Shown here: one piece after another, positions 15,473 to 59,799 of the stretch
Layout: each line of letters opens with the position of its first letter
How positions within the stretch are numbered: position 1 is the stretch's first letter
Assembly: GCA_006503475.1 (NCBI GenBank)
Contig: RSEH01000091.1
Span: 94,986-158,985 of the forward strand
Origin: Stentor roeselii
Taxonomy: Eukaryota > Ciliophora > Heterotrichea > Heterotrichida > Stentoridae
Direction of reading: 5' to 3'
Length of the DNA stretch: 64,000 nucleotides
Notes under the pieces: generated by a model
What the model was told of the DNA's origin: nothing
Seen by the model: only the letters and a program-made list of their open reading frames with translations
Database searches by the model: none
Program-made: the position numbers and the translations under genes

Positions 15473-16333
15473 ATGGAAGAACTTCAAGTTGGACCTTTTG
15501 AACCTGTCATTGAAGGCAATCAAACTGGCATCTGGAATGTCATTGAGGAAAAGGATGGAAGGGTTTATGCAGCTTTTCAAACTGGGCATATTTATAAGAT
15601 AACTGACAGGCAACCTGATGAACTTTATAATACGAGCGGGCAGCCTACTTCTATTGTTTTTGAAAGTAACAATACAGCGTATATTGCTGATATGGCTCAT
15701 CAGTGCATTCTTTGCTTGTCTGACTCGGAAAATCGTGAAGTCACTGAAATTGTGAGGGACTATGAAGGCAAACCTTTACTAGGCCCCAACTGCTTAGCCT
15801 ACAACCCCGAAAACAAATACTTATACTTCACCGACAGCGGTCCTCTTGGCGAGACTTCCATCTCAAACCCAACCGGAAGCATATTCGCAGCAGATCTAGA
15901 CCTGCTCGTTCTAAAGCCAATAGCCTTGAAATGTCTGGCATACCCATCAGGAATCGCGATAAGCAACGACGGAAAATTCATCTACGTGTCTGAGACCTGC
16001 ATGAACCGAGTCCTAAGAATAGTTCAAAGTCCATACGGAGTTCACCACATGAGTGTCTTTTACCAGTTTTCATCAAGATTCGGCCCAACAGGTATCGCAG
16101 TATCTGAAAACGGGAAGATTTACGTTGCGAACTACGACTTCAGCGACTATTCTAAAAATGGTATGATTTCCATTTTAAGTTCCGAAGGAGTATTGATCGG
16201 AAATTTCACAGTTCCTTCAGCGCCCGAGATCACTTCGATAAACTTCTCGAAATCAAAGCCGAATCAACTTCTGATCACTGAGTCGACGAATAACACCTGC
16301 TACCGAGTCACGATTCCCAATGAGTCGAATTAG
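15473..16333 (+). CDS. SMP-30/gluconolactonase-like six-bladed beta-propeller
   Basis: 286 residues, single exon, start context TTATAAATGG. Blades carry repeated hallmarks of the SGL/strictosidine-synthase-like propellers: GPNCLAYNPENKYLYFTDS, YPSGIAISNDGKFIYVSET and FGPTGIAVSENGKIYVANY. No signal peptide is visible, so a soluble cytosolic protein is likely. Substrate cannot be told; lactonase, esterase and non-enzymatic members share this fold. Synonymous codon choice changes abruptly near 15781. The stop is only 6 bp before the next ATG. Confidence 0.75.
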   Translation: MEELQVGPFEPVIEGNQTGIWNVIEEKDGRVYAAFQTGHIYKITDRQPDELYNTSGQPTSIVFESNNTAYIADMAHQCILCLSDSENREVTEIVRDYEGKPLLGPNCLAYNPENKYLYFTDSGPLGETSISNPTGSIFAADLDLLVLKPIALKCLAYPSGIAISNDGKFIYVSETCMNRVLRIVQSPYGVHHMSVFYQFSSRFGPTGIAVSENGKIYVANYDFSDYSKNGMISILSSEGVLIGNFTVPSAPEITSINFSKSKPNQLLITESTNNTCYRVTIPNESN

Positions 16334-16339
16334 TAATAA

Positions 16340-16861
16340 ATGGATTTTAAGGGATTGACTGAGGGAATCACGAAAGGACTCACTCGAAGTCGCCCCATGA
16401 GTGATGATTTGAAGAAATTCGTCAGGGGCGATAGTAAAAGGACCTCAGCTGACAGTCGCTTTGCACAGGGGAAGAAGTTGTTTATTGATACTGCTTCCGT
16501 TGCAACTCCTTCTGCTCAGAGAAAGTCTAGTTTTATTTTTTCTAGTAAAAATCATTCGGTTCATCAGCTGGTTCAATCGAAAACTGTCAGGGCTAGTCCT
16601 CATCAGGTTATTAGAGAAAAACTTAGGTTTTTTGAAAAAGTTGGAAGCCCTTTGAAAAAGACTAGTCCCAGAGATGCAGTTCAGGAATTTTTTGATGTCT
16701 CTGGAGAAAGGATTCATGATTTGATCTGCTTTTCTAACTTGAATAAAGCGACGAAAATTGTGCAGAATCATGGGCTGCAGAGAGTTAGTTTAAGCTATGT
16801 CAGGCAATTGAAACAGTTTTGCAATCAGGTTTTGAAGAGTTTTGAAGAAATTAAAGAATAA
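16340..16861 (+). CDS. Small basic protein of unknown function
   Basis: 173 residues. The N-terminal half is basic and Ser-rich and probably disordered. Residues about 100-170 are predicted helical (EKLRFFEKV..., VQEFFDVSGERIHDLICFSNLNKATKIV). No family was recognised. The start codon is separated from the preceding TAG stop by TAATAA only, so any promoter must lie inside the upstream gene or the two are co-transcribed. Confidence 0.7.
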   Translation: MDFKGLTEGITKGLTRSRPMSDDLKKFVRGDSKRTSADSRFAQGKKLFIDTASVATPSAQRKSSFIFSSKNHSVHQLVQSKTVRASPHQVIREKLRFFEKVGSPLKKTSPRDAVQEFFDVSGERIHDLICFSNLNKATKIVQNHGLQRVSLSYVRQLKQFCNQVLKSFEEIKE

Positions 16862-17037
16862 TTTTTATTGTGTTAGATAAATCTTGGTGAATTATGAGAG
16901 TATTGAAGATATTAGAGAAAATATAACATCTTAGTTCGGTAACACCCAATTTTATCTATTTTTTATCTTAACCTTAAAATAGTTAATCTTCCTCTCAATA
17001 AATCCTAAAGACTAAATCTCTTTCCCTGTTAATCTAC

Positions 17038-17709
17038 CTAAAAAACTTCACAACTGCTAAGACATCCTTTTTTACTCTGAACCGAGGCCATCTTCCTGTG
17101 ACTTTCCTTCAAACTTTCAATTTCCATTCTAAGATTCTGATTTTCCTGTTCTTTTTCCTTCATTTCCTTGATAAACTTTTCAAGTGAGTCTTTATTTCGA
17201 TTGTTTTGTTTTTCACTATTTAATCCAACAGAAGAAATCCTCAGATCTTTTTCTTGGATTTCCTCATCAAGTTTTTTCGCCTGGTCCTTCATGTCTTTTT
17301 CCCTTTGGTGATGCTGAGCTCGAAGTTGTGCAAGTTCTCGAGCATAATAATCATGAGTCTCCTGCTCAATTTTCTTGATTTCTTCTTCAATCATCAACTT
17401 CACCCGAGGAATGTCTTCATCTTCAATTTGGATTTTCAGGTAATGTGCATAACATTTAAGACATATTCGAAGAGCTTCTTGCTTTTCTGGATGTTGAGCT
17501 GTTAGAGGTGAACATGCTGAGCAGACTGAGTTGAAGCAGAATCGGCTGAGTTTAGGTTACCAGACGTGCTTTTGAGATTGACTCGCTCCTTTTGAACCGA
17601 GGGGACAACCACAGAGCTGGCACTCGGATTGGGTTTTAGAGATGTTACGGTCTTCGATTGGTTGAAGTTCTTTCACGTTTAGGATGATTAAAGCTGTGCC
17701 TTCTACCAT
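17038..17709 (-). CDS. FYVE-type zinc finger plus coiled coil
   Basis: CDS is complement(17038..17545, 17561..17709), 218 residues, with intron GTAACCTAAACTCAG at 17546-17560. The second exon alone would miss the start. Eight cysteines form four CxxC pairs (30/33, 50/53, 58/61, 78/81) with spacing C-x2-C-x16-C-x2-C-x4-C-x2-C-x16-C-x2-C, as in FYVE fingers. The stretch KHVCRFC replaces the usual R(R/K)HHCRxC, so binding to phosphatidylinositol 3-phosphate is uncertain. A coiled coil covers about 95-205 (EEEIKKIEQE..., KKLDEEIQEKDLR). The start ATG sits in AATAAATGG. Likely an endosomal adaptor, by domain analogy only. Confidence 0.75.
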
Positions 17710-20149: not shown

Positions 20150-20179
20150 ACAGTTAGTATTTAATATTCTTTCTTTATA

Positions 20180-21706
20180 ATGAATTTGAAAAATGAGATG
20201 AATAAACCGAAGGGGTACTTCTCGACTTATAGCTTTGGATGTGAACATAAACAAAGATTGGAAAATTTTATTAAGAGAAATAAACCTTTGTCACCCAGAA
20301 AGGAAAAATCTTCTAGTCCTGTTGTTGAAATTCAAAAAAAAGAGAAAAAGTTGACTTTTGGAGCTAAGGAACTGGTTTTTGTGGAAAAGGAAAAACCGTT
20401 GAAGGTTAAAGAACAGAGATTTGTTGAAAAGGAAAAAGTTTTGAATAAGTTTGATGGAGTATCTCGACCAAAAATTAGGTTTCCTTCATTTGAAGACACG
20501 AGAATCAGCCCTAGTCCCATATCGAAGAAGGAAATATTACTCACTGCTAAGGTAATCAATATGCAGATGGAAGCTCTGATCACTGCTGAGGCGGAAATAG
20601 ATCAGTTACGTCAAAAGATCTCTTCAACCCATTCATCATCCACAAGCAAGCTTCATTCCTTAGAAAAATCTCTAAAAGACCTAAAGCAATCATACCCCAT
20701 CCAAAAGTCATCTCTAGTGAAAAGTCTCTGCAAAGAAATAATTCTAGGCCTGATCCCTCAAGCAATTTGCCAATCAACCTTAAAATCCTCCTCCACCCTC
20801 GACGCCCGACAAAACGCTCTTCAAGTCTCCATCCAAAAAATGAAGAAACTCGAGAACAAATTAAAGTCAACAAAAGAATCTCTCGAAAAGCAAGCCTTAA
20901 ACCTATTGTCTCACAAAAACATTCTCTACGAAAAATCAGTAAAAATCCAAGAAAAAGCTGAAAGCATCGAAACCCTTTCAGCCTCTTTGGGGAAGTCCGA
21001 AAGAGCCGTGATCCAAATGGCCGAGTCCTTTAAAAAGCGAGAGGATCTTCTTGCGCTCAGGCTTGGGCAGATCTCCTGCCTTGAAAAGCAAATTCAAGAC
21101 CAAGAACTCTCTTTGTTAGCCATTTCTAAGAAAAGAAGTGAAAGTGCTGATCGACCTTCGAAGTTAGTAGAAAATCCTTTTTTACTTCGGGAAAACGCGC
21201 TCAAGGCCAAGGAAAATGAATTGAATGTGAGGAGAAAAGAAATTGAGGAAAAAAAAAATGCTGTTCTTGAGGTTAAGTCGAAAATCAAGTGGAGACTTAA
21301 TAATATCGTGAGTTTGGAAAGAAGATCGGAAAAAATTAAACAGAATTCGGAGAATAAAGCTGAGGAATTTGAAAATTTTGTAAAACAAGAGGAAAAAATG
21401 CTCCAGCTTTGGAGAGAAAAAGTGAAAAATAAAGAACTTGTAGTCAATCAGCTTAGGAATAAATGCAAAGACCTGGAAAACCGTCTCAAGAACTTTAATG
21501 AAAATAGGGACTACGAAAAAGATAGCATTGAAGAATTCCAGGTGATTGAAAAAGAAGTGGAAGTTTCGAATAAAGTAGAAAAATTTACAGATTTCGCGAA
21601 AAGGTTCCAACTGCGTCAAGCTGAAAGAAGAAAGGAGTACCAGGAGATAAGCAAAGAAAAAAAAGAACTATCAGAAAAAATCAGTTCGATCTTGAAATTC
21701 CAGTAA
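20180..21706 (+). CDS. Long coiled-coil protein
   Basis: 508 residues, single exon, start in TTTATAATG. Residues about 1-110 are basic (Lys/Glu/Pro). From about 115 to the end it is nearly continuous heptad-type coiled coil rich in Lys, Glu, Leu and Gln, interrupted around 165-195. No head domain was recognised. Centrosomal, basal-body or cortical structural proteins look like this; the function is not determined. It converges on the gene at 21785 with a 78-bp gap containing a small duplication. Confidence 0.75.
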   Translation: MNLKNEMNKPKGYFSTYSFGCEHKQRLENFIKRNKPLSPRKEKSSSPVVEIQKKEKKLTFGAKELVFVEKEKPLKVKEQRFVEKEKVLNKFDGVSRPKIRFPSFEDTRISPSPISKKEILLTAKVINMQMEALITAEAEIDQLRQKISSTHSSSTSKLHSLEKSLKDLKQSYPIQKSSLVKSLCKEIILGLIPQAICQSTLKSSSTLDARQNALQVSIQKMKKLENKLKSTKESLEKQALNLLSHKNILYEKSVKIQEKAESIETLSASLGKSERAVIQMAESFKKREDLLALRLGQISCLEKQIQDQELSLLAISKKRSESADRPSKLVENPFLLRENALKAKENELNVRRKEIEEKKNAVLEVKSKIKWRLNNIVSLERRSEKIKQNSENKAEEFENFVKQEEKMLQLWREKVKNKELVVNQLRNKCKDLENRLKNFNENRDYEKDSIEEFQVIEKEVEVSNKVEKFTDFAKRFQLRQAERRKEYQEISKEKKELSEKISSILKFQ

Positions 21707-21707
21707 T

Positions 21708-21815
21708 CATGTAAACTAAGAAAAATCATAAATCCAGCATTTAAAGTAATAATAAATGAGATAAATCCAGCATTTTAATGTAAACTAAGAAATGTCATTA
21801 AATCCAGCATTATCA
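21708..21815. repeat. Direct repeat duplicating the 3' end of the minus-strand gene
   Basis: The motif ATGTAAACTAAGAAA...TCAT-AAATCCAGCATT occurs at about 21709-21741 and again at 21778-21812, with a third shorter copy (ATAAATCCAGCATTTTAA) near 21760-21778. The second copy contains the real stop and last codons (GFNDIS, stop) of the minus-strand gene. The others are downstream copies of that gene end, so this is a local tandem microduplication. Confidence 0.7.
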
Positions 21816-23476
21816 ATAACTCTAAAAATAATCAAATCTTTACAATCATCGTCGTAGTATTTTTCAAGGACTTGGTTGAAACACATGAGAAACTCTTGGA
21901 AGTTTCGACTGTTTACTCCAATTTCTCTTATCATTTGATGTGTCATGCTTCTGGAATCGAGAATACCGCCTTTTAAACAGGTGTCTATAAATTCTTTGAA
22001 ACTACTGGTCTTGGTTAATGGCTTTATTCCTGCGGAGAATTGATCGTGGCTGAGAACTGATCCGATTATTTCGCTTATTATTGTTTCGATTAGGCCTTGC
22101 CTTGCTTTGTACTCGCGGCATAGCTCTTCGTTTATTTTTGCTTGCTTTTTCAGTTCTTTTGCCCTGAAGACAGTTTTATCATACAACTCAGCTAAAGGCG
22201 AGACAATATTATCCCTAACAACACTCGGCTGATAACTATGAGCCAAGCTAAGACTAGCCGAAAACGATTTATAAATAGAGAACTCATTTTCTCTATCAAA
22301 GCTGACATATTCCGCAGGTTTAACCTTGATACCATCAATTCGAGTGCGAATATTATCAAGTTTTTTAGTGATGACTTCTTCCTCACTATGATGGTTTTCC
22401 ACCTTCTTCACCTCAAACGGGTTGCTGGTGCTTGTTCGAATGAACCTTCTAAGCGCGACAGACTGAAGCAGCAGTTCCAAATCAACCCCTTTAATTTTGC
22501 ATCCAATCAAAAGCCACTTTCCCTTCGAATTTTCAATGAAATCAAAGTAAGCTTCATTCACAGGGGCTCCATTCATGATATCTCTCCATCTTTCAATCAT
22601 CGACAAGAAGTCTTTGATAATTCCTTCTAAAGCAGCGTATTTTACATGAGGCGTCACAGTGACTGAGTTTTGAGAGTCACTCTGCTTTGTGATATACGTC
22701 GATGCAGCGAAAGCCACCTTCGTCAGACTTGCTTGTCGGGTGAAGTTATTCAAATGAGCCTTCAAATGACCAATCAATAGTTTTTTCTTATCAGAAGCCA
22801 AAGTTTTCATCTTAGACTTATGCAGATGAAAAGGAGAAAAAGATGTTTTAAGCAGTCTTCCAGCGTAGTTATACTCAGAAACATTAAACATATAAGAAGA
22901 GTTCTTCGGTCTCGCCATCAGCTGGTCAGTGAACCACTGAGACTTGGGCAGGGGGTTCTTGTTAGACACTAAAAAATAAGTGAACCCTTTTTCTCGATTC
23001 CATCGAATTCTAAGTTTTCTCGAGAATTTTGTGCCTGAGTTGATAAACTTCTGTAACAATGAAAACTCTTGACTTGTGTTATGCTCTCGTGCTTCGGCTT
23101 CGTCGGCGTAAAGCTGAACTGAACTGGTTGTGAAGTGAATGTACTTCGGTTGGCGATACTTTCGCATTTCTAACTCTTTTGTTAGTTCAAAGAACTTTTC
23201 GTAGGAATGACTGTCGGACTCCATGTGTAACTCGCCTTCTCTGAAATAAAATAATGCATGTCTTTGAGCACTGCTGATTGAAAAATAAGAAGTCGGGATT
23301 AAAGTGTTTAAAGATGTTCCTGAGTAGAGAAGGAATAGGAAAAGATGTAGCTTGCTTGAGAAGTCCTTGTTGAATATCGTTGAAAGGTAAACTGATGGTC
23401 GTTGCTTTGGGGTTTCTGTTGAGTTTAAACGAGTTGATTTCCGCATTGGGAGTAAAAGTTTAGATTTTCTTTCCAT
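21785..23476 (-). CDS. 563-residue protein of unknown function
   Basis: Single exon with start context TAATAAATGG. The first 40 residues are basic. The body is a mixed alpha/beta sequence without low complexity and with several aromatic-rich conserved-looking stretches (KYIHFTTSSVQLYAD, KGFTYFLVSNKNPLPKSQWF, GKWLLIGCKIKGVDLELLLQS). The C-terminal third is helical. No signal peptide or membrane helix is evident. I do not recognise the family. Its stop codon lies inside a small direct repeat. Confidence 0.75.
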   Translation of the reverse strand: MERKSKLLLPMRKSTRLNSTETPKQRPSVYLSTIFNKDFSSKLHLFLFLLYSGTSLNTLIPTSYFSISSAQRHALFYFREGELHMESDSHSYEKFFELTKELEMRKYRQPKYIHFTTSSVQLYADEAEAREHNTSQEFSLLQKFINSGTKFSRKLRIRWNREKGFTYFLVSNKNPLPKSQWFTDQLMARPKNSSYMFNVSEYNYAGRLLKTSFSPFHLHKSKMKTLASDKKKLLIGHLKAHLNNFTRQASLTKVAFAASTYITKQSDSQNSVTVTPHVKYAALEGIIKDFLSMIERWRDIMNGAPVNEAYFDFIENSKGKWLLIGCKIKGVDLELLLQSVALRRFIRTSTSNPFEVKKVENHHSEEEVITKKLDNIRTRIDGIKVKPAEYVSFDRENEFSIYKSFSASLSLAHSYQPSVVRDNIVSPLAELYDKTVFRAKELKKQAKINEELCREYKARQGLIETIISEIIGSVLSHDQFSAGIKPLTKTSSFKEFIDTCLKGGILDSRSMTHQMIREIGVNSRNFQEFLMCFNQVLEKYYDDDCKDLIIFRVIDNAGFNDIS

Positions 23477-26635: not shown

Positions 26636-27256
26636 TTAATTAACGGCGAAGAAAAAAGTAACACCCAGTACGCCAATCAGAATAAGTCCGCTTAGTCCGC
26701 AGATGATTGTCCACTTGATGTTCTGGCATCTCGCTAGACTAAACAACTCGTCTCCACCTTTCTTGAAGATAAGGGCTCGGGTTTCCATTTCTTCAGTCTT
26801 TTGTGCGATTACCTCCATTTTTGCAGTGTTTTTTAGCACTCTTTGGATGTTTGTCATCACGATGTCATTTATTTCGTTTACTTCAGAGTTTATTCTAGTT
26901 ATTCGGTCTTCGTTTTGGTTTGCTATGAAACGTTTTGTGATTTCTTCCAGGTCTTCGGAGGATGGGTATCTTAGATCTTTCATTACTTCGATCATTTCGA
27001 AGGCAAGCTTTTTTGAATATCCGCTCTCAACAACAACAACAAAACTTTTTCCATCCACATTAAGTAAATGCACATGATAAGTATTCTCATAATTAAACGA
27101 GCTACGAGCATTTGGTCTAACACCTTCACAAACAAGTTTCTCAACAACATCCGGAATAGTTCCAGGTTTTGAAAACTGTGCCTTGAGACTTTCCGCAAAA
27201 AAAACGCCAGCATAAAAAATCTGTTTAGGCCTACGAGAAGGTACTCGGTTATACAT
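26636..27256 (-). CDS. Longin-type R-SNARE (VAMP7-like) with Asn at the zero layer
   Basis: 206 residues: longin domain about 1-115, SNARE motif about 117-177, membrane anchor about 181-203 and a three-residue luminal end. The motif aligns with synaptobrevins (V-x-EI..I...NI..VL), with the canonical zero-layer Arg of VLERDQKL replaced by Asn143 (VLKNTAKM; codon AAC, 26828-26830). Acts in vesicle fusion with endosomal, lysosomal or plasma membrane, by family. The gene starts 14 bp after the kinesin stop on the same strand. Confidence 0.85.
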   Translation of the reverse strand: MYNRVPSRRPKQIFYAGVFFAESLKAQFSKPGTIPDVVEKLVCEGVRPNARSSFNYENTYHVHLLNVDGKSFVVVVESGYSKKLAFEMIEVMKDLRYPSSEDLEEITKRFIANQNEDRITRINSEVNEINDIVMTNIQRVLKNTAKMEVIAQKTEEMETRALIFKKGGDELFSLARCQNIKWTIICGLSGLILIGVLGVTFFFAVN

Positions 27257-27270: not shown

Positions 27271-29391
27271 TTAAAGCTTATAAACCGGTTTACGCACCTT
27301 TGGACTGGCATTCGAACTACGGTCAACCCGAGGAGGTCTTCTTATTTGTGCTCTTTTCTCACTTTGCACATAAGAACTCGCGTTAGACTCTTCAGAGTCA
27401 CTTGAACCCGTCGAATAAGACCTAATCCGATGCGCATATCTTCGATTTCGACCTTCTTTGTACTTGTCTTTTTTTTCTTTAGAAATTTTCGGCAAGTTAG
27501 TCGATTCTCGTCCTTTTGAATGAACTGAAGAAGTCGGTGAGACGTTTTTAGGCCGAGGAATGCGAGAATGAGAAATTGGAGGAAGACTTCTGGCATAGTC
27601 GCCTTTTTTTCCAATAATCATCGATTGCGCTGAGATTTCGTCGAAGGAGCGAAGGTTGCTGATGACTCGTTCAGGTGAGTTTCTGATTAAGTCTTGGTTG
27701 GAGTCGATGATTGTGTCGCGTAGTCGAAGCTGCTCTTCGAGCAGCTTGATATATTGGTCCTTTTGCTCCATGGCAGCTTTGTTTTGGCTTTCTTTGCATT
27801 CTATTTCCAAGGAACTTATATTAAGCGCGTGTTTTTTCATTTCAATTGAAAGTTGGGAGAGGTAAGGTTCTTGTACTCCAAGTTTAACCCAAGAATTTTC
27901 AATTCCTTGTCTTTTCTTTTCAAGTTCAATTGCTTTTTCTCTTTCTTGTCTCAGTTGAAGGTCGTAGTTTTCAATGGTTTTCTTTAAAGTTTCTATTTCT
28001 CCCTTGGCATAATTAAAAGCGTCGGAATTTTCAGGGATTTTTGCAAGTTCCAGTTGTCTGGAATAAACAACGAACTCTAATTGACTCAGGTTTTGTTCGA
28101 TTAAATGAAGAGATTTTCGGGTTTTAGCCTCTTCTTGGAAGTGGGTTCCGAGGACGATTAGGTATTTTTCGATGGAGACAGAAGGAATGTTTCTTTTTGA
28201 GTGAAGTTGTGTTCGAAGCTCGTTGATTTCTTGTCGAAGTTGAGAAATTATGGTGGTGTATTTGGAGATGTGGTATTGAACATTCACGACGTTCTTTTGA
28301 ACGTTTGTTTTTATGTTCTTTGCACGGTTTGCGTAGCTTAGGGTGTTGTGGGTGTCTTCGAATGATGCGTAAGAAGGAGATACGCAGGCGATCATCACCG
28401 TGCGACAGTTACCGCCTAGGGAGTCTTTGAGAAGTCTGGTTAATTTACTGTCTCGGTAGGGGATGAATAGTTTACTTCCTTTTTCTGCGTTTTCGTATAG
28501 GGCGTTTATACAGTTTCCTAGAGCTAGTAATGATCTGTTTATATTCGCACCTTCTAGAAGCCGGATTCCTCGGTTTTTTGTTGTGGATGCACGCTCGGAA
28601 CCTGCCAAGTCAATCAAGCTGAGTTTGCCGCTAATGATTTCCGCATCCGCACCAGAAGCCTTATCCCTATACTCAACAATAATCTGAAGTACAGCATGTG
28701 ATCTCGAAGAAGTTTCATTTGCCATAGTAGCTTCACAAGTTCTTCTCTTATTTCCATTTCTGATAAGGTTAATCACATCACTCGGGGAAGTCACCATGAC
28801 TTCACTAAGTCCCGCAATGGTGACTCCCTTCATCGAGTCCTCCCTGACATCTAACGACTCAGAGCTAGTAGTAAGTAAGTCTCTAACTTCTTCATTATAA
28901 ATCTCCAAATAACTAAGTCTGACTTTATACTGCCTCTCAAGCGACAATCTAGAAAGACATTCAAAAACTTCCTGAAAAGTAAGAATCATAAGTCCAGGAC
29001 TTTCACTATCTCCAATCATAGTATGAGTCTTTCCAGCTCCAGTCGCTCCATAAGCGAAAACAGTAGCATTATATCCATTCGAAACTCCATCAATCAAAAA
29101 TCGAGTGGTTTTTTCGAATATCCCTTCCTGACTCGCAGTTTTATCAAAAGCCACATCGAACGCGAATTGTTTTTCACGAGACCTGTTCGACCTGAACGAG
29201 TCTTCGGGAAGGTTAACGTCAGCCATCGGATCCATGAGCACGACCAAGTTGGAGTCGAGGACATGCACAAGGCACCTCATGTCAACCTCGGCTTCTTTTT
29301 TATTCAGAGGGCGAACACGGACACAGACGACTATGTTGCCTGAAAGGTTTTCGTTACTTTCATCATCTTTTTTCTCGAAAGGTTTTCGCAT
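27271..29391 (-). CDS. Kinesin-8 motor (Kip3/KIF18-like)
   Basis: 706 residues from the ATG at 29391. The frame continues 47 codons further, but that part overlaps the divergent LITAF-like gene, so the internal ATG is chosen. The motor domain covers about residues 18-385 with P-loop GATGAGKT, switch I NETSSRSH, switch II DLAGSE and the neck-side hallmark NRAKNIKTNVQKNVVNV followed by HI.KY, which is diagnostic of kinesin-8. A coiled coil follows (about 390-570), then a basic Ser/Arg-rich tail. Kinesin-8 walks to microtubule plus ends and controls spindle and ciliary microtubule length. Strong synonymous-codon skew switches occur near 28620. Confidence 0.92.
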   Translation of the reverse strand: MRKPFEKKDDESNENLSGNIVVCVRVRPLNKKEAEVDMRCLVHVLDSNLVVLMDPMADVNLPEDSFRSNRSREKQFAFDVAFDKTASQEGIFEKTTRFLIDGVSNGYNATVFAYGATGAGKTHTMIGDSESPGLMILTFQEVFECLSRLSLERQYKVRLSYLEIYNEEVRDLLTTSSESLDVREDSMKGVTIAGLSEVMVTSPSDVINLIRNGNKRRTCEATMANETSSRSHAVLQIIVEYRDKASGADAEIISGKLSLIDLAGSERASTTKNRGIRLLEGANINRSLLALGNCINALYENAEKGSKLFIPYRDSKLTRLLKDSLGGNCRTVMIACVSPSYASFEDTHNTLSYANRAKNIKTNVQKNVVNVQYHISKYTTIISQLRQEINELRTQLHSKRNIPSVSIEKYLIVLGTHFQEEAKTRKSLHLIEQNLSQLEFVVYSRQLELAKIPENSDAFNYAKGEIETLKKTIENYDLQLRQEREKAIELEKKRQGIENSWVKLGVQEPYLSQLSIEMKKHALNISSLEIECKESQNKAAMEQKDQYIKLLEEQLRLRDTIIDSNQDLIRNSPERVISNLRSFDEISAQSMIIGKKGDYARSLPPISHSRIPRPKNVSPTSSVHSKGRESTNLPKISKEKKDKYKEGRNRRYAHRIRSYSTGSSDSEESNASSYVQSEKRAQIRRPPRVDRSSNASPKVRKPVYKL

Positions 29392-29413
29392 ATTATAAAA
29401 GACTTCACTTGTA
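29392..29413. promoter_or_regulatory. 22-bp divergent start-to-start interval
   Basis: Only ATTATAAAAGACTTCACTTG plus two bases separates the start codons of kinesin-8 (minus) and the LITAF-like gene (plus). It contains a TATAAAA string. Both 5' UTRs and any bidirectional core promoter must fit here or extend into the opposite coding sequence. Confidence 0.55.
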
Positions 29414-29977
29414 ATGGAAACAACGAAAAAAACTGAAGTGAACTTCATACAACTGCCGAATACGGAAGAGTCGATTATTAGAGGGTCTTTAGAACAAAGT
29501 GAAAGCCCGGTTTCTAAGAGAAGGATTTTCACGGATTTTCCGACTGAGGAAACTTTGAACCTTAGGTCGTTGAATTCACCTCATACGGCTTCGTCGATAC
29601 GGGAAACGTTTTTTGATAAGATTAAAGACGTGGTGATGGGAAGTAAGGTTGGTGAAACTTTGAGACTTACACAAACCGTTAGTGATAGCAAAGATGATCC
29701 TCCTGTGGTCAGTGAAAACCGAGTTATTGAGGCTTTTGAGCCTCATGAAATGATGATCGGGCAGGAGGTACCTACTCTAATCTGGTGCGCTTTTTGCAAA
29801 GGTGAAAGAAAGACTGAACTTGACTATGTCAACAGTTCAAAAACCTTCTGGGCTTCTGTTGGGATCTTCTTGGCAGGAGGGGTCGCTGGGTGTTGTCTAG
29901 CACCCTATTGTATTAATAAATGCAAGGCCACTCGACTTACATGCTCAAGATGTGGACATATTGTTATGAGTGACTAG
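29414..29977 (+). CDS. LITAF/SIMPLE-like domain membrane protein
   Basis: 187 residues. The first about 115 residues are Ser/Thr/Glu-rich and probably disordered. The LITAF domain occupies 120-185: CxxC at 125/128, a hydrophobic half-helix FWASVGIFLAGGVAGCCLAPYC, and the second knuckle CSRCGH at 177-181. The four knuckle cysteines bind one zinc and the hydrophobic part inserts into the cytosolic leaflet of endosomal or lysosomal membranes (family knowledge). It diverges from kinesin-8 by 22 bp and is followed by the phosphodiesterase after 27 bp. Confidence 0.85.
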   Translation: METTKKTEVNFIQLPNTEESIIRGSLEQSESPVSKRRIFTDFPTEETLNLRSLNSPHTASSIRETFFDKIKDVVMGSKVGETLRLTQTVSDSKDDPPVVSENRVIEAFEPHEMMIGQEVPTLIWCAFCKGERKTELDYVNSSKTFWASVGIFLAGGVAGCCLAPYCINKCKATRLTCSRCGHIVMSD

Positions 29978-42200: not shown

Positions 42201-44870
42201 AACGAAACCTGCTCTCTTTGCCATCCTTGGTGCGAAGGTTGCACCATTGACAAATTTTTCAGATGCACGAGTTGCTCGAATTTTTTACTTGTTTCTGTTT
42301 GTGTCAATCGATGTCCTTTAGGATACACAACTATTGAAAATACTTGTCATGATGAAGATGGAGGAATCAGTTTAAAGTTCACTTTTGAAAGACTTGATGG
42401 AAATTTCAGTTCAAATGAAGTGTTCATGATTTGTGGAAAATCGGAAAAGTTTTACCCTGAACTCGATTCAGGTGATCCTTGGCCGGCTTATAAAAGAGGG
42501 ATTTTTTTTCAGCAGGGGAAATTTTGCAGGTTTCCTTTTAAGAGTTTTGAGTACTTGTTGGGAGTTCGGTTTGGGATTAGTTTTTGGGTACAGATGAATC
42601 GATTTGAAGGGGAGGTTTTCACTGGGTATAACTCGAATAAGCTGATTTTAGAGGTTTTTTTAGGGGAACAAGATGTGAAAATGAAGATATTTCTTGAATC
42701 TTTATATGAAAAAGGTTTTGTGTATCAGGCTGAATTGAATACCTGGATGTTTTTATTAGTGAATGTTGAATATGATGTAAGGACAATGATTTCTCTTGGA
42801 ATCAACAGAGAGATTTCTTCTTACTTTTCATTAAGTGAGTTTCCTTTCAACAGCACTGAAAAAACTCAGTTTTTTTTAGGAAGTGACTTGAATCATGATA
42901 GTTCTTTTCATGGGTATATTTTTGAACTTTCAATTTACAAAGCACCTCAAATTCTTTCAAGACTTGCTGATCATTCAGACTGTTTTTCAAATGTTGATAG
43001 TCAAAATTGCTTCTCTTCCTGTGATCTTTTAAGTTTTCCAGAAAATTCATCTTGTTATAGCTGTCAAGATAAATGCGTAAAAGGTTGTGTTTCGAATACA
43101 ACATGCAATCTCTGTCAAGACATCAATTGCTATCAATGTCAGGATTACGAAAAAGGATCATGCATTAATTGTCATGAAAATTTTATGGCTTTCAAGGGAA
43201 TTTGTGTTGATAAATGTAAAGAAAAACAGTACTTTGATGAAAAACTATTAAAGTGCAATTATTGCCCTGATTTGTGTGAAACTTGTCAGTCTCTGGATGT
43301 TTGTTTTAATTGTTCTCAAAATGCAAGATTAAATCATTTTGAACTTTGTGAATGTCTTCAAGGATTTCAGGGAAAAGAGAATTGTTTAAGAATTTTTTTC
43401 AATGCTAGTCTGAAGTTAACAACTGAGGATATTCCTGTCATTGTTTTTAGTGAAAAGTTGAATGAAATGCTTACTAATGATGATTTGAATGTAAGTATTC
43501 AGAATGTGTCAGTAGGATTTAGGGTTTATTCAGATGATATGGTTGAATTTAGGATTGTTATTGATATAAAGAATGATATTTTGGTGAGAGATCAGCTTCT
43601 AATAACTTTTAACTCCGAAATAACCTCAAAAAATAACTCTCTACTAAAAACCAAATCCTTAACCGCTCAATTATTTCCTTATTCAATTTCTCCCTCTATA
43701 CCCAACGTTCAATTAATAAAAAAATCCGCATCCACTGCAACAGTCATATTAAATTCGATCAGTCTAGGCCTAAGTATAATAAATTTCGACATTCGAAGTT
43801 TTTTAGATCTAAGAAACGCAGCAGAGATGTTTTCAGTGATAGTCTTATTCGATCAGCCTCTAGATGATTCACTTCTGGCTTATTTATCACAGATCCATGA
43901 ATCATCGACCCTTCCATCCTACCTCGAAGCGGTGATCCCCGACCCTAAATCAGTAAAACTTCCAGAAAAACTTCGAAACTACGGCTACAAATCAAATCTT
44001 TTACTGTTAAACTGTGGAATGCACTTCATGACATTTTCATTACTTTTAGCTGTTTATATTCCTGCTAAAATTGTTCATCTTATTAAAGAAAATGGATTTA
44101 CTCGGAAAATTATGAATTACTTGGAATTTGATGCTTTTTTTAAACTTTGGACTCAAGGGTTTCTAGAAGTGAGTATTTGTTCGTTGCTTGGAATAATGAA
44201 TACTCAGTTTTCAAGCTCGATGGAGATTTTTGATTTGACAGTTTGTTTTGTAATGCTTGTATTTGATATTCAGGTGATTAATATGTTTGGAATAGGGTTT
44301 TTGGGTTATTTGATTCGGAAATACTCAAGAATTAGAGACGAGGATAAGACTAAGAAATTTTTGCAGTATTTTGGGAATTTTTTCAATGAATTTAAACCGA
44401 ATGGTCTTTGTTTGTATTATTTGTTGTTTACTTTGAGAAGATTAGGAATTTTGGTGTTGTTTCTTTTTGTGAAGGAAGGAATTATTATGATTTGTTTGAT
44501 GGTTGGACTTTCAACATGGGTATTTTTTAAGTAGACTTTCGTTTATGTGGTGTTTTCGAATAGTCATTTGGATAAGTTTAACATGATTTTTTTACTTGCA
44601 AGTGAATTAGGGCTTAGCATCTTTCACTGGATGATCATTACGAAGTTTTGTATTGGAGTGAATTTTTCTAGTTACTGGATCATTGGAGTAGTGTCTTTGA
44701 CCTTGGCCATCAATCCTTTATTGGGTATTGCAAAAGCTATTTCAAGAGTGGCTCGATGGATTCGGGAAAGAAAGTATAAAGTGAATACAACTGATATGAA
44801 ATGTGAGGAAGATAATAGAAATATTTGGGTTAAAAGAAGTACATCAACTATATTCACTAAGCCTAATTAG
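39201..44870 (+). CDS. Giant LamG-like/Cys-rich surface protein with C-terminal multispan module, copy A
   Basis: CDS is join(39201..44258, 44274..44519, 44535..44870), 1,879 residues. The introns are GTATTTGATATTCAG (44259-44273) and GTATTTTTTAAGTAG (44520-44534). The first contains no stop and would be read through, but its position matches an intron of the paralog at 46965. A signal peptide (MLLLSMILQTAAYL) is followed by three units, each a LamG/ConA-like domain (RGFYF or RGIFF strands) plus a growth-factor-receptor-like Cys-rich block with many CxxC pairs. A spacer follows, then seven or eight membrane helices. Likely a plasma-membrane receptor or channel; ciliates have many such proteins with unproven functions. 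It is about 55% identical by eye to copy B. Confidence 0.85.
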
Positions 44871-46964: not shown

Positions 46965-49900
46965 ATGAAAGTCTTAGTTATAAATATGTTTATTACAGTA
47001 GTGGTGATGTCAATTCAAGTGTCAGCCTACCTCTACTGCAATTCTCCAGTTTGTTCATCTTGTTCACAAGGTGTTTTATTCAAGGAACGTCAATGTCTTC
47101 CTAACTGTCCTTACCCACAAAATAAGTCACAAACTCCTTGCAATGCAAAATATGATTTCCTTTTCTTCGATCTTGAATTCGAAAATTTTAAATTGTTTTC
47201 TGCATCATCAATAAATGATTTCTCAACTCCAGGAAATCTACCCTTCAAAGATCAGTCAAAAACCGGTCCTTTACCAACATTTAGCCAAGGATTTTACTTT
47301 ACAAATAACAGTAGTTTAAAATGGACTACAGATCGTTCAATTTCGTCCAATTTCTATTTTGATGTTTGTGGAATATTCAAAAAACCAGGAAAAATCTTTC
47401 AAATGATTAGTAATGGGATGACTTATTTTCAATTAAGTACTGATGCTTATAATATAATACTTGAAATACTCTTAAAAAATTCTACAGAAAGTTTCTTAGA
47501 GAAAGTAACAATGAATATTAATTCAATCAGTTGGGATTATTTTAGCTTTAATATATATCACAGCCTTTCTGGAACAGTCTGTATTACCATTTATAAAAGA
47601 GACTCTTCAAAATTTATTACTTATAATAAAAAGGAGTTCATGCCTCCGAAATTTGACATCGAATTTGTTTTTGGTAGTGATTTGGGAAATGGATTTGAAG
47701 GGTTCCTTTTAAAATCTAGATTTTACTTCGATCCTGATTCATTAAATAATTTTAATTATTTTAGAGATTATTGCTTGTGTGATTATAATGAGTATTGCGA
47801 TAAGAATAATATTTGTCAGAAATGCCAATCTGGATGTAATGATTGGCCATGGTGTTTGCATAGTACTTGCAGTTATTGCTACTCTTCTGGATGCTCTGAA
47901 TGTTCTAATTATTTATATTCAGGGTGCAATAATTGCCTTTCTGAAAATAAAACGGAACCTGATTGTGAATGTGGACCTTTTTGTAAATCATGCAATAAAA
48001 CTTTTGAATGTTTATCTTGTGATGATCAATATGTTCTAATAGAAAATAAATGCATAAGTCAACCCTATAATATAAATGAAAGATTAATAGACTATACCTT
48101 TAAAACATTTGAACAGTTCAAAGGAAATTTAATGCAGAGTGGAGATAATCCTGATACTTTCTTTCCTCTCAGCCATGAACTAGATGATCCATGGATACTT
48201 GCACAAAGAGGCGGCTACTTGAACAAGACTCGCTTTTTTAAATCTAAATCAAGCATTAATTTCATATTAAACTACCAGTTTTGTCTTAGTGCATGGGTTA
48301 TGGATGATGTTTACATTGACTTCGGTAACTTAAAAATTGATTCTAAGTCTAGAATTCGGATTAAACTAGTTTCAAGAGAATTGACAGCAGAATCATCATT
48401 AAGATTTTGGGGTTTAAGTACAAATTATTGGAATTTTATTCATGTTTGTTGCAAATTTGAAAATTCAGCGACAATAATTAGTATTAGAAATAATAATACT
48501 GATTATAGTCCTTTTACTTCTGAAGGGTTTATTTTTATTTCGGATGGAGGAAACTTTAAGATAGGATCAGAAGGTAATGGGCTTATTTACTATCTGGCTA
48601 TTGATCAAAAGTATACTGAACCTCCATCAAATTATTTAGAAAAATCTTCAGATGTTGGATGTTTTTTTTACCAATATTTCAATACCTATCTTAAAACCTG
48701 TATGAATTGCGATATAAATTTTGTAATTCCTTGCAACTCTTTTGGCACCTCATCAATGTGCAAATACTCCGAATGCAGTACTTGCAATTCTTTTGAAGAA
48801 ATATGCTCAAAAAATATATCTGCAAATTGCTCAGTTAATTTGGTTTATATTAATGACAAATGCTGCTATAATAGATGTAATGACTGCTTCGAATCAAGTG
48901 AATTTTCATGCCTTTCATGTTTCAGTCCTTTCTTATTATTAGGCCATACTTGTGTCGAAGTATGTCCAACAGGATTTACAAAAGACTCCCAAAAATGTAT
49001 TGAATCAGTTTCACTTGTAGTTGACATAAAATTCGATAACTTTTTATATGAGTTTAACGATTTATCAATTTATGGTAATTTGATCAAGGCAGGGAACGAA
49101 ACTGTAGTTTATCCAAATGTTTTTCCGAGTCACCCTTTACCAGTTTTTCGGAGGGGATTTTACTTTTCATCAAATAGTTCTGTTAAAATTGGAAATATTT
49201 CGCTTAGCTACAATTATTCAATCATTTTTATTGTGAAGCCGATTGGTGCAGGTCAGATATTCGCTCAAGAAAACTTTAAAGTTGAGATAAGGAATTCATA
49301 TATCTATATTAATGATCTTCGAAATGGTAAATATAATTATTTTCAGTCAGTTAAAAATAATACTTGGAATCGAATCGAAATCAGTTTTTATGGAATTATA
49401 AACAACATTCAAATAGTTAAAAACAAAAATTTCATATTTCCAAATACGGATTTAAGTGGAAATTCTGCATCTTTTAATAATATTTCTTTCAAAAATGAGC
49501 CAATAGACCTACAACTAGGTTCAGAAAAAAATTCATTCAAAGGTTTTTTATGGGTCTTCCAGCTGTTCAACTCACTATCATTTCCATCCTATCAAATATC
49601 TATTTGTTCAAACTCTATAACCTCAGACTGTTTGATCGACTGTTCACTCACTCAATATTACAACAAATCATGTGAATCATGCACAAACTGCCCATTAGGC
49701 TGTGTACGTCGAGGATCCTGCGAACTTTGTCTAGATCCTCTTTGTTCTAAATGTGAAAACTTTACTTCTCAATGTCTTGAATGCAAGGCAAATTCATTAC
49801 TTAAAGACGGAAATTGCACATGTTTAAAAAATTCTTACTTCAACGATTCAACTAATTCATGTGATCCTTGCATTAATAACTGTATTTCTTGCACTAGTCT

Positions 49901-52679
49901 TCAAGATTGTCAATGTTTTAACAATTCTCATGCAATTGACTTGAACTGTGTCTGCGACTCTCATTATTGGAAAGATTTGAATGAAAGTTGCTCGATTTGT
50001 CATTCTTGGTGTGAAAATTGTTACAATGATAAATTTTATACGTGCTTGAGTTGCTCTAATTATTTACTTGGATCTGTTTGTGTTAATGAATGTCCCTTTG
50101 GATATCAAATTAAAGGAAATACTTGTAATGATGGAGGTGGAGGAGTTAGTTTGAAGTTCAGATTTGATAGACTTGATGGAAAGTTTAGATCGAATGATGT
50201 GATGATGAGTTGTGGAATTTCTGATAAGTTCTACCCTGACTTTGATCATGCTGACCCTTGGCCTGCTTATCAAAGAGGACTTTTTTTTCAACGGGGAAAA
50301 TATTGCTCGTTTTCTGGAAATGGGGTTGGATATTTTTTAGGAATTCGATTTGGAATAAGCTTGTGGTTTAATTTAGTTGAAAAGGAAGGATTTGCTTTAT
50401 CTGCTTATGATTCTTCTGGATTGATTTTGTCGATTTATTTAGGAAATAATGAAATTGTTTCAAGTATTTTTCTAGAATCTCTTTACAGTTCTTCATTTCC
50501 TTACTCACTTGAATTTAAAACTTGGTTTCTTTTAATACTAAATGTTGAGTACGACTTTAGCAGTATGATATCAATCGGAATTAATGAAGATCGAGCAGCT
50601 TATATATACTTAAGCGAATATCCTTTCAATATAACAGAAAAAGCCCTTTTTTGTATGGGAAGTGATCATACCTTCCAATCTTCATTCAAAGGTTTTATTT
50701 TCGACCTGTCATTCTATAAATCTCCTCAAATTCTAAATACTTTTATCGACAACTCAAACTGTTTATCTGATAATCTTCAATCTTCATGCATTCCTTCTTG
50801 CGATTTAAACAGTTTTCCTGAAGACAACGGTTGCCAGAACTGTTTGAATAAATGTTTAAAAGGATGCAGGTCAAATAGTTCTTGTAATTTATGTGAAGAC
50901 TTGAATTGTTTTAAATGCTTTGACTATGAGAAAGGGTCTTGCACTGTCTGCTTAGAAGAATTTAAGCTTTTTAAAGGTATTTGTGTTTCAATTTGTGATC
51001 AAACTCAGTTTTTTGATGAAAATGACTTGACATGTAAAAATTGTCCTAATTTATGTAATTCTTGCAATTCCACAACATTTTGCTTAAATTGTACTGAAAA
51101 CGCTGAAGTTAATAGTAGTCAATTGTGTCAATGCCGGAAAGGTTTTAATGGAACAAGTTTTTGCTCTAGAATTTACTTCTATGCATATATGAAATTAAGC
51201 AGTGATAATATAGCCACCATTATTTTCACTGAGCCACTACTAAAAATACTTACTAATGAAAATATCTCTGCAAGTATTGAAAACTTTCCTGTTAATTTTT
51301 CAATCAAAACAGAAGATATGATAGAGTTTCAGTTAAAATTTTACTTTAAAAAAGATGTCAAGTTAAGAGATCAACTAATTCTAATCTTTCAAAATGAAAT
51401 AACATCAAAAAATAACTCTTTACTTTATACCAAAATTTTAACAATTCTGATGTTTCCTTATACTATTCCAATTTCTGATAATAGCACAATTCTATTTATT
51501 AAAGAATCAGTATCAACTGCTAGTATTGTAGTCCTTTCTGCTAGTCTAGGATTCAGTGCAATTAATTTTGATATCAGAAGTTTTTTAAACCTTCAAAATA
51601 CTGCTGAAATGTTTTCAGTCATGATCATTTTTGACTTTGGATTTGATGATAAAATGAAGGCTTATTTATCACAAATCCATAAATCCTCGTCTATTCCATC
51701 ATATATAGAAAAATTTATCCCTGCTTCAAAAGGTATCATCCTTCCCAAGAAATTTTATGACTATGGTTATAAGACTAATCTTATTTTATTAAATTGTGGA
51801 ATGTTTTTCACAATGTTTTTTGCATTTTTAGCGATTTATACCTTTGCAAAAATTATCCATAAAATAAAAGTCAATCCTGTGACTATAAAGTTGTTGAATT
51901 ATTTGGAATTTGATGCATTTTTTAAACTTTGGACTCAAAGTTTTCTTGAGATTAGTGTTTGTTCTTTACTTGGAGTAATGAATTCAGAATTTTCAAACTC
52001 TTTGCAAGTTTTCGATTTTAGCCTTTGCTTGTTTATGCTTGTAAAATTTAAATAGGCGCTTAATTTACTTGGAATAGTTTTTTTGGGTTTTTTGATAAGA
52101 AAGTATTCATATATAAGAGATAAAGAGACAAAAGAGAAGTTTTTGTATTATTTTGGGAATTTTTTCAAAGAGTTTAATCAAGATTCTCTCTGTTTGTATT
52201 ATTTTTTTTTTACTGTTAGACGATATGCGGTGTTGTTGATTTTTGTTTCTATAAGAATTGAGATTATTCAAGTAATCTTAATGTTCAGTCTTTCGTTTTG
52301 GGTAAGTTTTATGTAGAACTTTATATATATCATCGTATCTAACTGCCATTTGGATAAGTTCAACAAAACATTTCTAATTGCAAGCGAGTTCGGATTTCTT
52401 TCTTTTTATTTACTGATAATCGCTAAATTTTATCTGGGGGATGGTATTTGGAGTTCATTGAGTATTGGAGTTATTTCTCTTACTCTCGCTACTAACCCAT
52501 TCATCGGAATTATCAAGTTTATTGTAGCTATTCGTAATTGGTTTAAAGCAAGAAAATGTAGAGTTGATGTAATATCACAAACAAATATTGATTCTGAATC
52601 AAATATGTGGAAAAAGAGAATCATTCAAACAAAAAGTCAATTACGAGGAAAAAATTTTGCAATTAGTTTAGATAAATGA
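46965..52679 (+). CDS. Giant LamG-like/Cys-rich surface protein with C-terminal multispan module, copy B
   Basis: CDS is join(46965..52040, 52056..52301, 52317..52679), 1,894 residues. The introns are GTAAAATTTAAATAG (52041-52055) and GTAAGTTTTATGTAG (52302-52316), at exactly the same protein positions as in copy A; the middle exon is 246 nt in both. The order is as in copy A: signal peptide (ending QVSAYLYC), three LamG-like plus Cys-rich units, a spacer, then seven or eight membrane helices and a short basic cytoplasmic tail. Similarity to copy A runs the full length with few gaps. Copy B is more AT-rich in synonymous positions. Tandem duplication is the evident origin; ligand or ion selectivity cannot be read from sequence. 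Confidence 0.87.
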
Positions 52680-57207: not shown

Positions 57208-57295
57208 TCTTGGATTAAGAATATTATTTGGGAAGATTTGAATATAAGAAAGACTCGCTTATCGAGGATTTAATATCAACCTTTCTACAAACTAG

Positions 57296-57829: not shown

Positions 57830-57969
57830 TAGAGTTATTATTAATTATAAGGTTTATTATAATGAATACTAGAAAATCAAGATTTTTACTATATTTTAAA
57901 AAAACACTAAAAAAGTATTTCAGTTTATCAATCTTTTTCAATAATTTTCTCTTTTATTTAATTATTTAC

Positions 57970-58326: not shown

Positions 58327-58333
58327 CTGATAA

Positions 58334-58780
58334 TTATTTTATTTCAGCTGAATTGCTCGATTTCTTTGATTTTTTAGTTGGACTTGCAACGATTTCATTA
58401 AAAATCCCAGAATCTCTCAAAAAAGCGAGGTTTTCATGAAGGTTGATCGCATCAACAACATCACTAAAAACCATAGTTTTTCTATTCTTCGATTTCGAGA
58501 AACTATAGATTTTTTCACTGAGTTCTTGAATAAAAAGCTCCTATTTTTTTATTACTGTCGCGTCCATCATCGTTTGGACCCCGTCACTTCGGACGCTGTC
58601 TTCACAAACAGAGTTCATCAGCTTTCTAACCCTTTGAAAAGGAAAAGGAAAAGAGCTTTTAACTTCTTTAACCTTCACCTTTTGCGAATCAGTCACCAGA
58701 TCCTGCGACACTCCATCAACAGTCACCTTTTTCCCCGAATTCTCTAAAAATATCTCCTCTTCACCTAGATTTCCCTCCAT
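58334..58780 (-). CDS. Histone-fold protein, CHRAC1/POLE4 (NF-YC-like) type
   Basis: CDS is complement(58334..58540, 58556..58780), 143 residues, with intron GTAATAAAAAAATAG at 58541-58555. Splicing joins MMDAT to ELFIQELSEKIYSF, restoring the family pattern ATELFxQxL. Residues about 53-125 form the fold: FPFQRVRKLMNS (L1 and first helix), VQTMMDATELFIQELSEKI (long middle helix), then RKTMVFSDVVDAINLHENLAFLRD (last helices). This matches POLE4/CHRAC-15-type subunits, which pair with a POLE3/CHRAC-17-like partner in chromatin remodelling or DNA polymerase epsilon. The N-terminus is acidic. An ORF on the opposite strand (58436-58747) is a shadow. Confidence 0.8.
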
Positions 58781-58950
58781 TTCTCTTTTTAACTCTAAAG
58801 TCAAAGTAAAAAATCCAGAAAATCATTGAAAAAAATCTAAATTTTTAAATAATCTCTGAAAATTTTCTAAATTTTTATTAAAACTTACAATTTAAACACT
58901 TTTTTAATCAAATCTTTTCTTCTGTTGTTTTTCGCCATATTCGGGAAATA

Positions 58951-59799
58951 ATGATCACAAGATCGTCAGTCCTTCGCTTTTTTTCATCAGCCTCGGCTTC
59001 TGTGTCGACGAAAAGCGACATAGAGAATCTAGAACAATACTGGGAAAGAGGCCTGCCGTGGTATAACATCATGAACACCCAGCTTTCGTTGAAAGCTTAT
59101 AAAACATTGGCTCCTTTTCTTCGACTGGATAAGGCCAAGAAGGTTCTTGAAATTGGAGGCGGCACTGGAGCTGGGGCTTCTGTACTTATTCCGCACTTGG
59201 CACCTAGTTCTACTTATGTTCTTACTGATCATATTGAGTGCTTTCTTAAAGTTGCTAGAAGTAGGAACTTGCCGAATACTGAAATTATCAACTGCTTGCC
59301 GAGTGCTTTACCGTTTTCAGGTGAGTCTTTTGATCGGTTTATAGCCTTGGCCACAATCGAAGAACTAGACACAACCAAGAAAATCCTGCAAGAAGCCTAC
59401 AGAGTCCTTCAACCAAAAGGTCTTCTTTCCGCATCAATAACGGGAAAGCGAGAATCAGATTCATACCGCTTCATCCTCGAAAAGGTAAAAACAAAGTTCA
59501 AAATTTCTTCAGGTCTAAAGTTCAGACGAGAGCTGAAAGACGTGCGACTTTTGACCAGCATGTTCGAAGCTGCAGGTTTCAGTCGACTTTACAAGTTTTA
59601 CGAGAATGTCTACTACGCCAGTGATGATATCGAAGAATTAAAGAACTTTTACTTGCAAGAGCCCAGCATCGCTGAGCAGGACTCTGACAAGAAGCAAGAG
59701 ATTAGTGCTTATTTGGATAAGGTTCTTAATGAACTGATAAGAAAAGAAGGAGTTCCAGTTGGTACTGATTATTTGTTCATTCTTGCTTATAAGGAGTAA
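58951..59799 (+). CDS. Class I SAM-dependent methyltransferase, possibly mitochondrial
   Basis: 282 residues. Motif I VLEIGGGTGAG is near residue 65, the acidic loop (TDH) follows, and FDRFIALATIEELDTTKKILQEAYRVLQPKGLL is the typical Methyltransf_11 strand 4-5 region. The N-terminus (MITRSSVLRFFSSASASVS) lacks acidic residues and looks like a mitochondrial presequence. No substrate can be inferred. Synonymous codon choice switches sharply near 59341 from G/T-ending to A/C-ending codons. Confidence 0.82.
   Translation: MITRSSVLRFFSSASASVSTKSDIENLEQYWERGLPWYNIMNTQLSLKAYKTLAPFLRLDKAKKVLEIGGGTGAGASVLIPHLAPSSTYVLTDHIECFLKVARSRNLPNTEIINCLPSALPFSGESFDRFIALATIEELDTTKKILQEAYRVLQPKGLLSASITGKRESDSYRFILEKVKTKFKISSGLKFRRELKDVRLLTSMFEAAGFSRLYKFYENVYYASDDIEELKNFYLQEPSIAEQDSDKKQEISAYLDKVLNELIRKEGVPVGTDYLFILAYKE

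Follow-up and report, generated by a model that had tools for sequence, protein, structure and literature searches.

Polarised composition switches within genes of Stentor roeselii and their possible origin at recurrent germline breaks

Composition switches within the genes of the window

The window analyzed here, a stretch of 64,000 nucleotides from the heterotrich ciliate Stentor roeselii, forms the right end of contig C517 (RSEH01000091.1, 158,985 bases; positions 94,986 to 158,985) in an assembly of 44.4 Mb (GCA_006503475.1). Many of its genes carry abrupt switches in strand composition, at which G+T-rich sequence gives way to A+C-rich sequence within a single open reading frame (ORF). ORFs of at least 150 codons were taken from stop to stop with introns ignored, and every codon with a synonymous third-base transition was scored as G/T versus A/C and standardised by codon class. 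Switch points in the window are given as 90% intervals, except for two steps below the threshold of z > 4, for which the peak ±50 bases is given.

Twelve switches from G+T to A+C exceeded the threshold in the window, together with two steps in the reverse sense. On the plus strand, they were found in an SMP-30/NHL propeller gene (15746-15779, z 6.09), where the switch is spanned by an SGL match at residues 45-270; in a RINGv/FHA gene (34181-34200), between the two domains and with the strongest score of the set (z 7.31); in an ankyrin-repeat gene (34932-34978, z 4.84); and in a methyltransferase domain (59335-59354, z 4.75), spanned by a Methyltransf_11 match at residues 66-159. Two more lie on this strand in the large ORF 39201-44534, at 40917-40952 (z 5.51) and 43594-43615 (z 5.69). 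On the minus strand, switches were found in a Kelch-repeat gene (9901-9916, z 4.55), just outside the best Pfam Kelch stretch; in a longin/synaptobrevin-like gene (27002-27032, z 5.67); in a kinesin motor domain (28598-28643, z 4.44), spanned by a Kinesin match at residues 72-407; and in three ORFs without a Pfam match, namely 21785-23476 (22140-22180, z 5.23), 36298-37689 (37097-37116, z 5.26), and 37699-38754 (38118-38143, z 6.58). The two weaker steps, also from G+T to A+C, are at 11020-11120 on the minus strand (z 3.39 at 11070) and 20607-20707 on the plus strand (z 3.73 at 20657). Scans of the window with Rfam and for tRNAs gave no matches.

An initial annotation of the window had reported sharp changes inside exons, in blocks several hundred bases long, and both aspects were borne out. 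Its hand counts of G+T were exact (0.529 in 15541-15780 and 0.396 in 15781-16020; 0.579 in 59101-59340 and 0.412 in 59341-59580). At all 13 sites that it named, the synonymous third-base signal falls from G/T-ending to A/C-ending codons, and 11 of them pass z > 4, the other two (listed as 11100 and 20610) being the weaker steps above. The switch at 40926 (z 5.5) was absent from its list, and the uniform polarity at every listed site, the two-sided decay, and an effect outside synonymous third positions all go beyond it. Its description of the phenomenon as synonymous codon choice is true but too narrow, as Leu first positions and the balance of Val and Ile also move. Likewise, the blocks are real, yet they behave as the two halves of one antisymmetric footprint.

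The scan was extended to a larger set of 150 ORFs (75,260 codons; 50-codon arms, z > 4) and a smaller set of 112 ORFs (40-codon arms), with synonymous sites shuffled within genes as the null (20 shuffles in the 150-ORF set). The larger set yielded 42 switches from G+T to A+C and 14 from A+C to G+T, where shuffling gave means of 0.8 and 0.65 (maximum 3 each); at z > 4.5 the smaller set yielded 14 and 1 (null 0.1 and 0.15). Shuffled synonymous codons, the comparison proposed in the initial annotation, thus produce far weaker steps, and amino-acid content is ruled out as the cause because the scoring was confined to synonymous third bases and standardised by codon class. In 50 kb of Escherichia coli the same scan at z > 4 returned 0 and 1 steps, and in an equal length of phage T4 none in either sense. 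The 42 switches comprise 26 from the window and an initial set of loci and 16 from loci chosen as relatives of window genes; contig C517 carries 19 of them.

The choice between T and C and that between G and A covary within genes to about 80 codons once the gene mean is removed, with a cross-correlation of about +0.04 at 4–30 codons (about 0.08 and 0.04 within the two classes). A positive cross term identifies a keto/amino axis, since local GC content would make it negative, and it does become negative at longer range when gene means are kept, as local GC content would give. No correlation of this kind between T/C and G/A choice was found in E. coli or T4, where switches were almost absent. 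A three-state hidden Markov model was dropped, as it mixed the G+T/A+C axis with GC content. The composition switches are real, strongly non-random, and a property of the DNA.

Abrupt change could in principle be produced by the fusion of two differently biased genes, and in two of the seven tested window proteins with a Pfam match the switch lies outside or between the best matches. In the other five (kinesin motor, methyltransferase, SMP-30 propeller, longin, and ankyrin), however, it falls within one conserved match read in one frame, and independent loci repeat the switches with one preferred polarity. An artefact or rearrangement, be it a chimaeric assembly, a gene fusion, or an inversion at the switch, is thus extremely unlikely. 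Old strand inversions, which the initial annotation had put forward for comparison, fit poorly for the same reason, as conserved domains cross the switch in those five proteins and the ORFs are continuous. As to the genetic code, TGA is a closed stop at 18 of 127 ORF ends, which fits a heterotrich with the standard code.

Polarity, footprint shape, and distribution

Gene direction is irrelevant to the switches, as had been stated in the initial annotation: 19 of the 42 are in plus-strand genes and 23 in minus-strand genes. Because reverse complementing a G+T/A+C junction gives the same junction back, its sense does not differ between the strands or between genes of opposite direction. With 80-codon arms and z > 3.5 the two senses are about equally frequent (43 and 53), since composition returns gradually, and 8 of the 14 reverse switches lie within 1 kb of a G+T-to-A+C switch of the same ORF, where two footprints would meet. 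Step skewness was positive, with a bootstrap interval above zero, at eight of eight window sizes (32 loci), and the kinesin loci, C517:40–90 kb, and the window each gave a positive polarity statistic.

The switch itself spans no more than 12–20 bp (26 switches), and a width of 30 bp costs 13.6 log-likelihood units. Beside it the asymmetry has a plateau of about 0.45-0.5; in both directions it has fallen to zero by about 500–570 bp, and at 650–850 bp its sign is slightly reversed. Because of this overshoot, a linear decay (L 611 ± 52 bp) and an exponential one (190 ± 54 bp) both fit poorly (chi-square 90.5 and 159.9, respectively; 20 bins). Autocorrelation along the plus strand, for which no switches were chosen, was positive below 300 bp, reached a minimum of -0.035 at 600 bp, and was about zero from 900 bp in the pooled loci. 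A GC-richer subset had this curve as well, and eight samples of other contigs alone also gave it (-0.036 at 600 bp), which strengthens its generality, and the dip was much weaker in AT-rich stretches (-0.007). This is the autocorrelation expected of scattered antisymmetric footprints of about ±500 bp. Candidate introns of 15 bases bounded by GT…AG are in excess (20, versus 1–11 at other lengths from 12 to 25), which again fits a heterotrich such as Stentor, and the 15-nt candidates analyzed for a step (n = 18, found by frame, not from transcripts) showed no G+T/A+C step.

A sharp jump followed by a gradual return is also the form expected if switches marked fixed changes of replication-fork direction, with a sawtooth of leading- and lagging-strand mutation as in human N-domains. 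We know of no fixed origins about 1 kb apart, and an upward jump in N-domain skew we take, by sign convention, to be a change from A+C to G+T. In excerpts of the source consulted, N-domains do combine sharp jumps with gradual ramps between them (PMC3320577), but their extremities are upward jumps, whereas the switches here are mostly downward. Moreover, the related timing domains average about 1 megabase in that account (PMC3320577), compared with a footprint of about 500 bp here, for which no clear periodic spacing was found up to 3 kb (with excursions to about ±0.02 at 3.3–3.9 kb). The scale is wrong and the sign seems wrong, and we consider replication polarity quite improbable.

Switches are unevenly distributed with respect to G+C content at third codon positions (GC3). 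AT-rich genes are poor in them (0 in 4,595 codons at GC3 < 0.2 and 1 in 8,632 codons at 0.20-0.27), and they peak at GC3 0.33-0.39 (25 in 26,789 codons). A regional boundary exists on the contig itself, where C517:1-40000 (loci L002-L005) is AT-rich (GC 0.27-0.32) and holds one switch and the GC-richer remainder holds 18. The ends of genes are also asymmetric: at GC3 >= 0.36, ORF starts lean towards A/C (-0.22) and the last 60 bases towards G/T (+0.15; 65 starts, 65 ends), and the lean of ORF ends is present in every GC3 class. From these leans, gaps between genes may often be footprint centres as well.

Nucleotide signature, paralogs, and switch centres

The change in composition extends beyond synonymous third bases. 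The first base of Leu YTR codons, which played no part in the selection of switches, has a T:C ratio of 208:40 on the G+T side versus 102:139 on the A+C side. Amino acids shift as well, with Val:Ile at 276:268 versus 151:284 and Pro at 109 versus 162 on the G+T and A+C sides, respectively. When the effect at T/C sites was compared by sequence context with that at reverse-complemented A/G sites, the two agreed closely (r = 0.89 over 16 contexts; bootstrap 0.68–0.92), whereas three wrong mappings gave 0.24, −0.45, and −0.45, the same-strand mapping being the one at 0.24. The match was equally good with no selection of switches (r = 0.90, 35,524 sites), and the signature repeated across three disjoint switch sets (r 0.67–0.88). 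The effect is strongest at YpG/CpR and weak at GpY/RpC.

Such reverse-complement symmetry points to a process acting on double-stranded DNA and not to selection on codons or mRNA. Selection on mRNA or translation would otherwise have some appeal, with weakly structured A+C-rich starts, G+U-rich ends, and the ramp repeated internally: ORF starts do lean towards A/C at GC3 >= 0.36, and ends lean towards G/T in lower GC3 classes too. Nevertheless, the contexts do not obey the same-strand mapping, kinesin paralogs switch at differing residues, and amino acids change together with synonymous sites, which makes this explanation very improbable. With AT-rich genes (GC3 < 0.25) as the baseline, G at A/G sites rises from 0.18 to 0.46 on the G+T side and C at T/C sites from 0.22 to 0.62 on the A+C side, with smaller shifts in the remaining two site classes (0.22 to 0.15 and 0.18 to 0.20). 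Read most simply, A changes to G on the strand that runs 5′ to 3′ towards the switch; with GC-richer genes as the baseline, C→T change on that strand contributes too.

Paralogs were used to follow switches between copies of a gene. A search with the kinesin of the window (27271-29532) gave 60 scored matches, the query included, of 171 candidates. This is a very large family, although a single gene may account for several matches through its exons. Twelve kinesin loci, made up of the window gene and 11 of the other 59 scored matches, were compared by eye in binned profiles; the switch falls at differing residues, and some loci have no clear switch. The ORFs 39201-44534 and 46965-52055 are large tandem paralogs with about 50% protein identity. 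The switch at 43611 occurs in the first of them only (Fisher p 0.012, with bins picked after the switch had been seen), and the step near 40926 is common to both, being similar but smaller in the second. Similarly, the window kinesin and one relative (L021) both switch near the DLAGSER motif, although their third-base classes there agree at 81 of 122 positions, somewhat above the 69 expected from independent draws. A cause at the level of the protein was rejected, given the differing residues in kinesins and the missing switch in the tandem copy. Switch sites can thus persist between diverged copies without being dictated by the protein, and not all of them are young.

Two further observations concern sequence matches towards the right end of the window. 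The segment 60306-61180, inside ORF 60270-61982, has 20 relatives at the DNA level with 66-75% identity among the matches listed, indicating a sizeable gene family. The last 240 bases of the contig (63761-64000 of the window) match C58:1-267 at 87%, perhaps as divergent overlapping haplotypes or a subterminal repeat.

No replicated motif was found at the switch centres. Only at k = 6 did the top k-mer score pass the 95% point of the simulations (7.55 versus 6.84); at k = 4, 5, and 7 it stayed below that limit. GTCA was present in 21 of the 42 switches (12.2 ± 2.3 in simulations), but this did not replicate in 24 weaker switches (7 versus 8.0 expected), among which AAGTCA, AAGTCAT, GGCTAA, and ACTTGAT were all absent. 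Words such as GGCTAA were enriched relative to the flanks, and were rejected as a candidate because recoded sequences with the same step largely reproduced the enrichment. The dinucleotide TA was not enriched at the 42 switches either (posterior mass 3.23, with 3.63 ± 0.39 expected by chance and 5.21 ± 0.35 for a set lying entirely at TA), and tolerances of 2 and 4 bases left this result unchanged.

These centres bear directly on the possibility that the footprint halves flank a germline-limited internal eliminated sequence (IES), the process being centred within or at the IES, whose excision gives the switch its base-sharp look. Such an arrangement would explain both a sharp, motif-free centre and persistence combined with gain and loss between paralogs, and the heterotrich Blepharisma has, in the sections consulted, about forty thousand IESs, ~70% of them intragenic (PMC9942856). 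However, most of those IESs are bounded by TA (PMC9942856), and on this idea TA would be expected at the switch, provided that Stentor is like Blepharisma. Without the enrichment of TA, what is left are segments bounded otherwise or a minority at TA. A piggyBac-type transposase gave no match in the genome, in a search that had no positive control. We therefore regard the IES explanation as unlikely. Excised-segment junctions had been among the features suggested for comparison in the initial annotation, and their TA-bounded type is unsupported here, a result that rejects TA at all switches, not at a minority.

Germline breaks as a possible origin and comparison with known systems

We propose, with a probability of about one half, that switches are the centres of mirror-image footprints of mutation or biased repair at recurrent germline breaks with 5′ resection. 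A break would form repeatedly at the centre in the germline and its 5′ ends would be resected, so that single-stranded DNA would remain of the top strand to the left and of the bottom strand to the right. In the course of evolution, A to G changes, and possibly also C to T, would build up on the strand whose 3′ terminus at the break is preserved. The top strand would thereby gain G+T on its left side and A+C on its right, and the asymmetry would fade over about 500 bp, which is probably how far resection reaches. The bias could come from single-strand damage, from error-prone (mutagenic) gap filling, or from mismatch repair that favours one strand, and we favour the latter two.

The analysis showed that the centre is sharp, that one polarity is preferred, how far the footprint reaches, that its context signature is symmetric between strands, that it acts on nucleotides, and that paralogs differ. 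That the centre is a break, and that the process acts in the germline, probably at meiosis, we infer. The rarity of switches in AT-rich genes and their concentration at GC3 0.33-0.39 are as GC-biased conversion would predict. The genome also gave matches above the cut-off to the TP6A_N, DMC1, and HOP2-type TBPIP models. The TP6A_N (topoisomerase VI A) match we take to be SPO11. At human meiotic hotspots, the flanks are described as strand-asymmetric, with A>N and C>N changes on the forward strand, A>G included, and a figure legend of the same paper places forward-strand single-stranded DNA to the left of the break (both from excerpts of PMC7615360). The correspondence between these left and right strands and the polarity of our switches would follow from our own reading of that legend and passage. 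In yeast, single-switch mutation clusters run mostly from 5′ C to 3′ G and are almost lost when long resection is lacking (1 of 24 clusters), according to the portion consulted of PMC6786661.

Several observations weigh against germline breaks. The main difficulty is the centre itself, which is sharp (at most 20 bp, with the effect greatest beside the switch) and has no replicated motif; in the human data, as excerpted, the central ±100 bp lack asymmetry and A>G peaks lie 700-800 bp off centre (PMC7615360). The effect is reversed in GYT/ARC, something that A to G change alone would not lead one to expect. The 42 switches are not a random sample of the genome, and in samples of other contigs (eight, of 10 kb each) polarity was weak (z > 4 at 0.0043 and z < -4 at 0.0034 of positions). 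The link with GC content is non-monotonic, with only 1 switch in 4,179 codons at GC3 > 0.45, and AT-rich genes also give less power to detect switches. These genes, nearly free of switches, still lean towards G/T in their last 240 bases (+0.17 to +0.23), which speaks for an additional cause. Finally, the usable noncoding flank of switches is small, at 417 and 114 bases from 4 places and 1 place, respectively. GYT and ARC are reverse complements of each other, and their reversal could represent a second process on the opposite strand. As for the sharpness, a narrow accessible linker or a hidden germline-limited segment at the centre would solve the problem.

More tentatively, and with considerable doubt, synonymous sites of the somatic genome might preserve a record, almost at the resolution of single bases, of discrete events in the germline, either recurrent programmed breaks or exactly cut-out segments. 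There would be a strong footprint every few kb in GC-richer genes, at motif-free sites that persist between diverged paralogs yet are gained and lost, perhaps with a signature particular to the lineage (A to G change preferred where a pyrimidine precedes, lacking before C, and reversed in ARC). If germline breaks are indeed the cause, their sites can be read from somatic sequence, more finely than the human hotspot footprint, in a group that lends itself poorly to the study of mating, as an excerpt of the Blepharisma paper says of Stentor coeruleus. Strand-asymmetric change linked to resection could then dominate local codon usage over evolutionary time, which matters wherever codon bias is read as translational selection. 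If an IES lies at the centre instead, the same signal predicts the location of hidden germline DNA.

Among published systems, each known to us here from excerpts of the cited papers, human N-domains share a sharp jump and gradual ramp in strand composition but have, if the sign convention is as taken above, the opposite jump polarity, and a scale about 1000 times larger (PMC3320577). The IESs of Blepharisma are likewise dense, mostly intragenic, point-like germline features, yet they are mostly bounded by TA, for which Stentor switches show no preference (PMC9942856). Yeast clusters share the polarity of the switches, with C-changes on the 5′ side followed by G-changes on the 3′ side, explained by bidirectional resection from a single break (PMC6786661). 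They are acute events at induced breaks, whereas the Stentor pattern is accumulated and shows a net gain of G/C relative to AT-rich genes. Human hotspots share strand-asymmetric flanks, with changes of A and C, A>G included, on the strand exposed by resection, and with C>T strongly raised at CpG (PMC7615360). Their footprint consists of new or rare variants over about 2 kb with a blank central ±100 bp and off-centre peaks, in contrast to switches that are fixed in composition, reach about 500 bp, and are strongest at a centre at most 20 bp wide. No report of the pattern in a ciliate was found in the titles and abstract beginnings listed by searches of the open literature, a search that left most subscription papers and all preprints outside. 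A footprint of this sort has precedents in human variants and yeast clusters; what appears to be new is that it is fixed, in a ciliate, as a sharp and dense pattern of composition inside genes.

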